Part shown: piece by piece, positions 1,058 through 29,702 of the stretch | How the letters are laid out: each line of letters begins with the position of its first letter | How positions within the stretch are numbered: position 1 is the first letter of the stretch | Assembly (NCBI GenBank): GCA_020073015.1 | Contig: JAIQFZ010000029.1 | Span: 1-64,000, forward strand | Direction of reading: 5' to 3' | Length of the DNA: 64,000 nt | From: Terriglobia bacterium | Lineage (GTDB): Bacteria; Acidobacteriota; Terriglobia; Terriglobales; Acidobacteriaceae | Made by a program: the position numbers and the translations under genes | Notes under the pieces: generated by a model | What the model was told of the DNA's origin: nothing | Seen by the model: the letters and a program-made list of their open reading frames with translations, nothing else | Databases searched by the model: none

Positions 1058-1188
1058 GAAAACCAGCTGTCAGCTCTCAGCCGTCAGCTCTCAGTAAAGC
1101 CTCAGCGGCTAAAGCCGCTCTGCTTTCGACTCCTTGCGGCCCAGCTAACGCCGGGCCCTTCCCAACCCCTTCCGCAAACCGCAAACTC

Positions 1189-3146: not shown

Positions 3147-3395
3147 CAGGTTGCGGAGAAACCAAGTCGACGGCCCGAGGCAAACCTCCGCGGCTAAAGC
3201 CGGCGATGATTTTGCGGCAGTTGCGGCACGACTGAAGTCGTGCCCTTCCCAAAACCCGGCTGACGATGGAGTTTTCCCGCCGCCTGTTAAGACAGGATTA
3301 AGGAGAAGGCCCGGGGAAATGCTGTAACAATCCTGCCCTTTTAGGCATCTTGTTAAAGGAGCGGAAGAGCTGTCCGCTCGTTACAATAGAACCTC

Positions 3396-17797: not shown

Positions 17798-17812
17798 GTA
17801 GTGGCAATGCTC

Positions 17813-17872
17813 ACATAGGGACGGCCGCCCTCGGCCGGACAGCCGAGGGCGGCTGTCCCTACGTGGACCGGG
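17813..17872. repeat. Family C palindrome (CACATAGGGACGGCCGCCCTCGGC...GGCTGTCCCTACGTG)
   Basis: Imperfect inverted repeat; related copies near 13145-13183 and 57213-57247. Confidence 0.85.
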
Positions 17873-17918: not shown

Positions 17919-20021
17919 GTGGCTTCCTCTTCCCATCCCGTATCGGCTGGCGCGGGATTCTCACTCTACCAGTTCTTCTCGCCCGGCGGCCTGCTCTCGA
18001 GAACGCACCCCGCCTACGAATTCCGCCGCGGCCAGTTGCAGATGGCGCAAGCGGTCGAAGAGGCCATCGAAGAAAAACGCCACCTGATTGTCGAGGCCGG
18101 CACCGGAACCGGCAAAACGCTCGCGTATCTGTTGCCCGTGATCCGCTCCGGCAAGCGCGTCATCATATCCACCGGCACGAAAAACCTGCAGGAGCAGCTG
18201 TTCTCGAAAGACGTACCGTTTCTGGAGCGCTCGCTTTATCCCGACGGAAGCGGCAAGCTCTCCGTCTGCTACATGAAGGGCCGCAACAACTACCTCTGCC
18301 GCAAGAAGCTCTACGACCTGACCGATCAGCCCGTGCTCAGCGGCCTGGAAGAAATCGAGCACTACCGCGCCATCGCCGCCTGGGAGAAGACAACCCGCAC
18401 CGGCGATCGGACTGAACTCGCCGAACTTCCCGAGGCGAGCGCGCTCTGGCACAAACTCGACGCCCGTACTGACACCTGCCTGGGCCAGAAGTGCAAAGAG
18501 TGGGAGCGCTGCTTCATCACCGAAATGCGCCGGCGCGCAGCTGAGAGCGATATCGTCATCGTCAACCACCACCTGTTCTTCGCCGACCTTGCCATCAAGC
18601 TCGAAGCCGAAGATGCGCCCGATGCCGGCGTTCTCCCCGAGAGCGCCGTCGTCATCTTCGACGAAGCGCATGAGTTGGAAGAGGTGGCCGGCAACTATTT
18701 CGGGATTACGGTCAGCAATCTGCGCATGGAGGAACTCGCCCGCGACGTGGAAGCCATGCTGCACCGCGAGCATCTGTACACGCCGCAGATGTCCAGTGCG
18801 ATCCAGTCCCTGCGCGAGCGCTCGCAGCTTTTTTTCTCGGTGCTGCCCGCCGGAGAAGGCCGCTTCGCCTTCGACACGCGCCGCGAGTTCCTCGAAGAAA
18901 ACGGAGACGAATTTCTGGCCCTCAACCAGTCGCTCCACCGGCTGGGCGCCGAACTCGACCAGCTTCCGCAGAAGCCGGAAGAAGTCTTCACGCTGGTGCG
19001 CCGGGCCCAGCAGTTGCAGGTGCAACTCGGATTTGTGATGGAGAACGAAGATCCGAACACGGTCTTCTGGATCGAGCGGCGAGGATTTCGTGGAGCGCCG
19101 GGCACCCCCGCCCGGCGAGCTTTGAAGGGGCGTGGCTTCAGCCACGGCGCAGGTGTCACCTCCGAGAATGGAGCTTCAGCCACTGAGGGGAGGCACTCCG
19201 GCCGCTCCAACGTCTTCCTGCAGGCCACGCCCATCGAAGTCGGCTCCATCCTGCGCCAGTGCCTGTGGTCGAAGCTGGAGACCTCGGTGCTCACCTCCGC
19301 CACGCTGGCGGTCGGCGGCGCCTTCGATTACATTCGCCAGCGGCTCGGCCTCGACCACGCCCGCGAATTCGTCGTGCCCTCGCATTTCGACTACGAGAGC
19401 CAGGCGATCCTCTACGTTCCCCCCGATCTGCCCGATCCACGTACGCCGCAATTCGCCGCGCAGGCGTCCGACCGCATTCGCCGCCTGCTCGAAATCACCC
19501 GTGGCCGAGCGTTCGTGCTCTTCACCAGCTACGCGCAGATGAACGAGATCTACGAGCGGCTTCTGGGATTGTTGGACTTCCCCATGCTCAAGCAGGGCGA
19601 CGCTCCGAAATCAGCGCTGCTCGAAGAATTCCGCATCACGCCCAACGCCGTCCTGTTCGGCACCTCTTCCTTCTGGCAGGGAGTGGACGTGCAGGGTGAG
19701 CAGTTGAGCTGCGTGATTATCGACCGGCTGCCGTTCGCCGTGCCCAGCGACCCGGTGGTCGCCGCCCGCGTAAAAGCGATCGACGCCGGCGGGGGCAACG
19801 CATTTTACGAATACCAGGTGCCGAGCGCAGTGATCACGCTGAAACAGGGCTTCGGACGCCTGATCCGCTCGCTCCACGATCGTGGGCTGCTCACGTTGCT
19901 CGATAACCGGATCTTGAAGAAACAATACGGGCGGGTGTTTGTGGAGAGTCTTCCGCGCTACACGAGGACGACGGATTTGAAGAAGGTGGAGGAGTTTTTC
20001 GGGATAAGCGGTGAGGCGTGA
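17919..20021 (+). CDS. DinG/XPD-family ATP-dependent DNA helicase
   Basis: EAGTGTGKTLAYLLPV, Cys cluster CLGQKCKEWERC, DEAH, GTSSFWQGVDVQGEQLSCVIIDRLPFAVPSDPV, QGFGRLIRS. Confidence 0.93.
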   Translation: MASSSHPVSAGAGFSLYQFFSPGGLLSRTHPAYEFRRGQLQMAQAVEEAIEEKRHLIVEAGTGTGKTLAYLLPVIRSGKRVIISTGTKNLQEQLFSKDVPFLERSLYPDGSGKLSVCYMKGRNNYLCRKKLYDLTDQPVLSGLEEIEHYRAIAAWEKTTRTGDRTELAELPEASALWHKLDARTDTCLGQKCKEWERCFITEMRRRAAESDIVIVNHHLFFADLAIKLEAEDAPDAGVLPESAVVIFDEAHELEEVAGNYFGITVSNLRMEELARDVEAMLHREHLYTPQMSSAIQSLRERSQLFFSVLPAGEGRFAFDTRREFLEENGDEFLALNQSLHRLGAELDQLPQKPEEVFTLVRRAQQLQVQLGFVMENEDPNTVFWIERRGFRGAPGTPARRALKGRGFSHGAGVTSENGASATEGRHSGRSNVFLQATPIEVGSILRQCLWSKLETSVLTSATLAVGGAFDYIRQRLGLDHAREFVVPSHFDYESQAILYVPPDLPDPRTPQFAAQASDRIRRLLEITRGRAFVLFTSYAQMNEIYERLLGLLDFPMLKQGDAPKSALLEEFRITPNAVLFGTSSFWQGVDVQGEQLSCVIIDRLPFAVPSDPVVAARVKAIDAGGGNAFYEYQVPSAVITLKQGFGRLIRSLHDRGLLTLLDNRILKKQYGRVFVESLPRYTRTTDLKKVEEFFGISGEA
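19089..19200. repeat. Composite palindromic element in-frame in the dinG-like gene
   Basis: gtggagcgccgggcacccccgcccggcgagc plus ggggcgtggcttcagccacggcgc. Confidence 0.75.
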
Positions 20022-20027
20022 GTAGGG

Positions 20028-20085
20028 ATCCTTCGACTCCGCAGGAACCTCACTTCGTGAAGTTCCTGCTCCGCTCAGGATGACA
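20028..20085. repeat. Family D palindrome (CCTTCGACTCCGCAGGAACCTCACTTCGTGAAGTTCCTGCTCCGCTCAGGATGACA)
   Basis: Inverted repeat; near-identical copy at 47516-47575. Confidence 0.9.
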
Positions 20086-20155
20086 AGCGTTACAGGGATG
20101 GGCGGACCCTGCCCTGAGCTTGTCGAAGGGACGCCCGTCCCTCTATTGGTGGACC

Positions 20156-24304: not shown

Positions 24305-24420
24305 GTTGCTAGTTGCTGGTTTCTAGTTTCTAGCGAAAACCTGAAGCACTCAACTGCGATTTCGTTGCGTGTACTTCGGCCCACGACGAAACTAGAAACT
24401 AGCAACCAGAAACTAGAAAC
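24305..24420. repeat. Family E inverted repeat (ttgctagttgctggtttctagtttctag ... ctagaaactagcaaccagaaactagaaac)
   Basis: Read directly; related copy at 35092-35159. Confidence 0.88.
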
Positions 24421-25397
24421 TTTTGCCGATATTCTTGGCGCGTCAACGTGCTCGTCGCCACTGCCTTCACACCCTGCTTCCGCAGGCGACCCGCGGCCTT
24501 CACCGCTTCGGCGCGCGAACGGAACAGTCCGTACAGGGTTGACCCTGATCCAGAGAGCGAAGCGTATCGAGACCCCGCGCGCTCCAGCGCACGTTTTATG
24601 TCACGTAATTCGGGATGCTGCGGAAAAACGACCTTTTCAAAGTCGTTTTCAATCCCGGTACGGACAAGGTCGAGAAGCAGGCTCCCGGCCCGGCTCCCGC
24701 CTTTTGCAGGAGCACCGGTGTTAGGTGAATCACTCAGCCACGACGAAAGCACGCGGCCAACCTCCAATAGTCTATCGGAGGCCCCCAACTGCGTCAATTC
24801 ATGATTACTGGTGGAGCGTCGGGCGCTCCCGCCCGTCAGCGCATCCCACTCCGCAAACGCCTGCGGCGTCGAAACCCCAACCTCCGGCGTAACCACCACC
24901 ATCGGCGTAGCCGCCAAATCCGGCAGCGGATAAACCTCCTCCCCCCGCCCCACCCCTAACACCGTCCCGCCAACCAGGAAAAGCGGCAGATCCGACCCGA
25001 CCTCCGCGGCAATGCGCAATCTCGTTGCGCCCGCTAGAGACTGTTTCAGCGCCCGTTCCAGCGCAACCATCGTAGCCACCGCATTCGACGAAGCCGCCCC
25101 CAGCCCGCCCTGCACCGGCAGCCGTTTCTCGATCGCGACGGTGACTTTGCCCTTCGCACGGAACTCATCCATGACCCGCTCGACCATCCGATAGCACGTG
25201 TTCGAGGAATCAAGCGGAACCCGCGGGTCGTCACACAAGATCTCAATCCCCCGCCCGCTCCCCACCGTCACCCGAATGACGTCGTGCAATGCGATCGTCT
25301 GATAGACGGTGCGCAGATTGTGAAATCCATCCGCCCGCACACGCCCGATGTAGAGCCCGAGATTAATCTTGGCAAACGACCGCACCGCGACTGTCAT
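24399..25397 (-). CDS. ispE: 4-diphosphocytidyl-2-C-methyl-D-erythritol kinase
   Basis: VRSFAKINLGLYIGRVRADGFHNLRTVYQTIALHD, KRLPVQGGLGAASSNAVATMVAL, ASLSGSGSTLYGLF. Confidence 0.95.
   Translation of the reverse strand: MTVAVRSFAKINLGLYIGRVRADGFHNLRTVYQTIALHDVIRVTVGSGRGIEILCDDPRVPLDSSNTCYRMVERVMDEFRAKGKVTVAIEKRLPVQGGLGAASSNAVATMVALERALKQSLAGATRLRIAAEVGSDLPLFLVGGTVLGVGRGEEVYPLPDLAATPMVVVTPEVGVSTPQAFAEWDALTGGSARRSTSNHELTQLGASDRLLEVGRVLSSWLSDSPNTGAPAKGGSRAGSLLLDLVRTGIENDFEKVVFPQHPELRDIKRALERAGSRYASLSGSGSTLYGLFRSRAEAVKAAGRLRKQGVKAVATSTLTRQEYRQKFLVSGC
24810..24841. repeat. Palindromic element in-frame in ispE
   Basis: ggtggagcgtcgggcgctcccgcccgtcagcg, same family as the 5' part of the dinG element. 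Confidence 0.7.
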
Positions 25398-29431: not shown

Positions 29432-29702
29432 CTCCCCAACAGACTATCGGCATTTCATTCCGCGTGACAGGTAACCAGTGGGTATTGCACTCCGGCGGGA
29501 ATCCGGCCATCCCCACAACAGGTTTCACGAGAGCAGACTTGGGTTAGGGCCGGGCTCAGACGCGCCCATAGACCCCGCAAACGAAGCGGGCTTCAGCCCC
29601 CGAGGGTGGATTTGTTGGCCTTAACGGAACTGTTGAATTCAGGTTCCCTGCCCGGGCCTTATCAACGCGGTAACTTTCGTAACCTTGCTTGGGCCGGAAC
29701 CA

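Follow-up and report, generated by a model that had tools for sequence, protein, structure and literature searches.

How did a DNA repair helicase gene come to carry, in frame, a stretch of palindromic DNA, and where did that DNA come from? The window, i.e. the whole stretch of 64,000 nucleotides that was analysed (genome G000, contig C189), comes from an uncultured acidobacterium with a genome in 245 contigs; among named organisms, Acidobacteriaceae, Terriglobia and Candidatus Sulfotelmatobacter MAGs are closest to it. In the initial annotation the gene was described as a DinG-like helicase with a composite repeat insertion of about 40 residues. Assignment to the DinG/XPD superfamily was upheld, but the protein is a YoaA and not a DinG proper, as it scored 744.9 bits against the NF053712 YoaA cut-off of 680 and remained far below the cut-off of the DinG models. 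The gene and the region of interest are as follows.

17919-20021, plus strand: yoaA-like DNA repair helicase gene (DinG/XPD superfamily), an intact ORF of 700 aa; NCBIfam NF053712 YoaA, Pfam Helicase_C_2 and DEAD
19083-19211, plus strand: hypervariable loop of 43 aa between VFWIERR and VFLQATPIEVG, varying in length across homologues

When 39 homologues were aligned, no other interval between anchors of the protein varied as much in length as the one occupied by the loop peptide, GFRGAPGTPARRALKGRGFSHGAGVTSENGASATEGRHSGRSN. Over 104 homologues the loop measured 6-43 aa and comprised whole codons every time. Based on this variability and on the known DinG/XPD fold, it is probably a permissive, surface-exposed turn. 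A second length-variable interval of YoaA, following residue 102 (about window position 18225), spans 6-35 aa and contains repeat-like peptides in relatives, e.g. AGTAVSAVKPSEG in L136 and VATAASAVQPG in L138.

Two unrelated dispersed repeats, designated A and B, lie side by side in the loop.

19091-19116, plus strand: repeat A, 26 nt, one hairpin, TGGAGCGCCGGGC-ACCCCC-GCCCGGC, encoding GAPGTPARR; identified by dispersed copies and a profile match
about 19123-19189, plus strand: repeat B, about 67 nt, two hairpins, encoding (K)GRGFSHGAG...ENGASATEG; identified by a profile from 65 copies
19131-19146, plus strand: hairpin 1 of B, cgtggcttcagccacg, an exact match
19170-19183, plus strand: hairpin 2 of B, decayed, GGAGCTTCAGCCAC against the consensus GGGGCTTCAGCCCC

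The sequence gccgggcacccccgcccggc at 19097-19116 is part of A. The two-hairpin consensus of B reads TTGGAAGGGCACGGCTTCAGCCGTGCCGTTAAGAGCCGCAAAAAATGCGGGCTTCAGCCCCTGAGGGACG, and its stems share the core GGCTTCAGCC, their outer parts being unlike. The peptide and both palindromes reported initially are present, although the second palindrome represents only the first half of B. Profiles trained elsewhere recovered A and B separately, in agreement with the proposal of two repeat families at one site. The A profile matched with E-values of 3e-7 among loops and 3.4e-6 in the window, and the B profile, from which the YoaA copies known at that stage had been excluded, with 5.8e-6 among all loci, 2.2e-8 among loops and 2.3e-7 in the window. 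Against reversed sequences the B profile gave nothing below 0.1 in the all-loci search; among loops, no reversed control of the profiles for A, B or a third repeat, C (see below), fell below 1e-3, that of the low-complexity C reaching 0.0026.

An ordinary low-complexity linker might look palindromic merely by chance in a G+C-rich gene: the window is G+C-rich, Arg, Gly, Ala and Ser codons favour such sequence, the sister clades have short, RGGRDKSN-like yoaA loops, and the whole 123 nt insert folded as DNA no better than its shuffles (z -0.62). Such a linker is scarcely credible in the face of sequence-specific matches to profiles trained elsewhere, with controls that were empty or far weaker, and this explanation is refuted for A, B and C. 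Given the folding result, the evidence for the repeats is their dispersal and not folding energy.

Besides the copies in the yoaA loop, the profile search detected one A and three B copies within the window, the former in ispE.

24399-25397, minus strand: ispE gene; TIGR00154 IspE, 168.9 bits against a cut-off of 138.7
24804-24835, plus strand: second repeat A copy, in the opposite orientation, in frame in ispE and encoding GGSARRSTS; profile E 1.5e-5
1098-1163, minus strand: further B copy, in or next to no ORF but a doubtful one of 141 aa; profile E 7.8e-5
3183-3250, minus strand: further B copy, intergenic (no ORF of 100 aa); profile E 1.5e-8
29543-29607, plus strand: further B copy, intergenic (no ORF of 100 aa); profile E 4.2e-8

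Genome-wide, the A core GCGCCGGGC-N4-7-GCCCGGC was present 10 times, including the yoaA copy, and a longer A pattern was found in about half of the searched genomes of the genus, with reversed-pattern controls of 0 in either case. The B pattern GGCTTCAGCC-N16-44-GGGCTTCAGCCC occurred at seven other sites of the same genome, 29 of 81 related genomes also contain it, and the reversed two-hairpin controls gave 0 in all. This strict pattern misses the window copy because of its decayed hairpin 2, and a strict single-hairpin pattern under-counts B, making the two-hairpin pattern necessary. Both A and B are palindromic units dispersed in the genome beyond chance, and the initial observation is confirmed. 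Among 147 distinct B copies, 128 were not intragenic and 19, YoaA cases included, lay within an ORF that showed coding signal to either side of the copy; the sampling was non-random, so that the intragenic share is rough, and one of the 19 lies in a short ORF (L091) that may be spurious.

The initial annotation left open nested or sequential insertion and proposed a search of the genome for the same composite unit. Insertion of B beside A was most likely sequential and not nested, as A ends at 19116 and B adjoins it. Copies of the composite were not encountered, the exact A+B pair being seen only in this loop; A+B as one mobile unit was discarded, a query with the whole 126-nt insert having matched only A-like and short B-like sequences. 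The situation that would have refuted the initial reading, a sequence absent elsewhere and conserved as protein in relatives, does not apply, for A and B are dispersed and the loop is unconserved as protein.

In relatives, nearly all of which are represented by MAGs, the yoaA loop was found to hold A alone, A with B, B alone or the third dispersed repeat C (CACCACAGAGACACAGAGACACAGAG, encoding SPQRHRGTEK; loops of L134, L148 and L140), the best E-values with profiles trained elsewhere being 2.9e-10 for A, 6.3e-16 for B and 1.5e-12 for C. Within the genus, several yoaA loops contain A, intact or worn, without B, and in five species (G000, G014, G018, G007 and G016) B stands beside the left-hand A sequence or its remnant; other species have diverged loops. 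Since A occurs without B, and the left part of A persists, if only as a remnant, in each of the five B carriers, comparison of these sequences suggests that A was most likely inserted before B. In the Sulfotelmatobacter clade, the loops of L133, L143 and L144 carry B without A, and that of L132 probably carries B (E 0.007). An A label for the L133 loop, derived from a loose motif match, was rejected as the profile gives B without A. The sister of L133, whose B is close to the consensus, is L136 (support 92), the loop of which reads NSPQRHQDAEK and by eye looks like decayed C, with a profile E of only 0.54.

Mapped on the gene tree calculated with the loop removed, the presence and absence of B required eight changes, at least seven of them forced by starred, well-supported branches, although such parsimony counts do not separate gain from loss. 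These counts would also accommodate a single ancient insertion of B in the common ancestor followed by many losses, and the five copies of the genus, which share a CGTGG...CCACG stem and the left flank GCTTTGAA, look orthologous. Nevertheless, in the second clade B stands without A and its stem is CACGG...CCGTG, as in the dispersed consensus, the L133 copy is near-consensus while its closest relatives have other loops, and a different family, C, has also entered the loop, so that one ancient insertion appears rather unlikely compared with repeated insertion. As the counts are blind to the direction of change and the copies of the genus look orthologous, we make the cautious claim of at least two B insertions in yoaA, one per clade.

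The yoaA loop is not the only coding site of these repeats. Family searches placed B in frame in MnmG (L218, L356 and L369), RNase R (L254, L267 and L355), GyrA (L255), GuaA (L269), HemW (L214) and a class-I glutamine amidotransferase (L358), and B was also located, again in frame, inside MnmE (L216) and an Lhr-type helicase (L220), with coding signal on either side of B in most of these genes. B copies that precede hypD (L209) and a peptidase gene (L088) were not regarded as intragenic, since the long ORFs around them probably start to be translated only after the repeat. In the host genes named above as in the yoaA loops, in-frame insertions interrupt conserved genes of which relatives lack the insert. 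The RNase R and IspE loops each hold several repeat types. That of RNase R contains B in L394 (the same gene as L355; E 2.6e-13) and L254 (E 1.8e-12), and in other relatives a possible worn B or, by eye in L402 and L405, HPERSEG-/HPEPSEG-type peptides matched by the DNA word CATCCTGAGCGNAGCGAAGGA, of which 49 occurrences were counted in the genome of the window. The IspE loop carrying A follows STPxAFADWD and is hypervariable in the genus.

Some minor observations concern the same genes and words. The word CATCCTGAGCGNAGCGAAGGA is present 2 to 170 times per genome in all 24 genomes of the genus, and two inverted copies often lie close together, at a distance of about 50 nt. IspE loops of relatives show other repeat-like peptides, AWTGEGARPH and AGQPGAAVP, and a prmC-like gene (L237, genome G017) has an in-frame repeat peptide of the CPERSRR type immediately ahead of the SAM-binding motif.

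Intragenic B copies are read mainly in the frame GHGFSRA...GASAPEG, sometimes as KGTASAVP or, in reverse, GTAEAVP, and each of five frames was open in 40-63% of the B copies, the sixth in none. In YoaA, B was seen in a single orientation and frame (GHGFSRA...GASAPEG), though several other frames are often open. This uniformity, together with the reported preference of intragenic repeats for replication and repair genes (PMC3733652), would be expected if the insert were selected because its peptide or its DNA or mRNA hairpins tune the helicase, be it through partner binding, DNA contact or translation. We regard such a function as highly unlikely, for loop length and sequence differ between near relatives, B comes and goes, and different relatives have unrelated repeats at this one place, as is also seen in unrelated enzymes; the loop peptide as such is most likely nearly neutral. 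That in this acidobacterial lineage the loops of YoaA, RNase R, MnmG and IspE are preferred entry points at which repeats of any family are exchanged, with the repeats driving diversification of housekeeping proteins beyond mere tolerance, seems to us quite unlikely as well. Our confidence is high that the yoaA loop is a permissive turn filled in frame by dispersed palindromic repeats, first A and then B.

Dispersal, multiple families per loop, open frames and rapid turnover are direct observations, and the filling of the loop may be pictured as follows. Copies would land widely across the genome, mostly between genes, and selection would purge almost every copy within a gene, sparing those that leave the frame open and fall in loops where a flexible peptide rich in Gly, Ser, Ala and Arg could be tolerated. 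A few loops would become repeat sinks or mosaics, in which mutation and deletion would wear the copies down with time. No two strains were found of which one has the site filled and the other empty, and no target duplication was defined. Movement might be brought about by a transposase acting in trans, Y1/RAYT enzymes being present, or by copying during repair of single-stranded DNA. Y1_Tnp (RAYT-type) transposases were detected in 22 of 24 genomes, and one of 70 Y1-transposase loci has an intact B at the 3' end of the gene. A single clear adjacency in 70 loci was judged insufficient for RAYT as the mover of B, and with so weak a linkage no REP/RAYT system is claimed. By eye, the 14-mers most widely shared around RAYTs look like transposase coding sequence and not like flanking repeats. 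In L314 (G015 C12) the 3' end of a RAYT-like transposase gene is overlapped by an intact B, and B-like repeats (LQSK units) are found at the 3' end of a RAYT-like gene in L352.

Rickettsiales are the best-known bearers of protein-coding palindromes, which have often been put down to weak selection in an intracellular lifestyle. The Rickettsia palindromic elements (RPE; Ogata et al., 2000, 2002) and the protein-coding palindromes of Wolbachia (reviewed in PMC2229807) resemble A and B in being short dispersed palindromes that lie in frame in conserved housekeeping genes, where a flexible peptide is tolerated. In contrast to the RPE, however, the present units reside in Acidobacteriota, mostly soil and peat MAGs, which are not obligate intracellular, are shorter (26 and 67 nt versus 105-146 nt; PMC2229807), and belong to unrelated families that are received by the same loop in different species; the comparison with the RPE families covered length and host (PMC2229807). 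Intragenic REPs (GTAG-/CGTC-tagged) are likewise short palindromes, mostly intergenic with some inside ORFs, notably of repair genes, and two Xanthomonas species have different REPs at roughly one position of recB (PMC3733652). The GTAG/CGTC foot is by eye absent from the B consensus and the A copies, A having CGTC only in its loop, and a further difference from the REPs is that we see no general RAYT association and at least three repeat families at the yoaA loop. With its two palindromes and a spacer of nearly set length, B also recalls BIME-type paired REPs and bacterial MITEs, but its stems are alike only in the core, and neither a terminal inverted repeat nor a target duplication has been established.

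The insertions are the same kind of phenomenon as the Rickettsia and Wolbachia palindromes and the intragenic REPs, in another phylum and with different repeats. The unusual part, going beyond the descriptions that we found, is that several loops of core enzymes have each received more than one unrelated repeat in different species; literature searches of mainly open-access coverage returned no description of these repeats in Acidobacteriota. In this lineage, of which most known members are MAGs from soil and peat, several repeat families enter the same core-enzyme loops, and comparison alone can test how non-coding repeats yield protein segments and which protein positions tolerate them. For annotation, repeat-filled loops should not be mistaken for conserved domains.

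Repeats were also noticed on both sides of the yoaA gene. An inverted repeat with 24-nt arms (92% complementary) lies at window positions 17812-17865, between a der-like GTPase gene and yoaA, and its core resembles DNA able to encode peptides seen in IspE loops. On the 3' side of yoaA, at 20030-20142, the dispersed-looking repeats CCTGAGCTTGTCGAAGGGACG and TTCGACTCCGCAGGAACC were observed.
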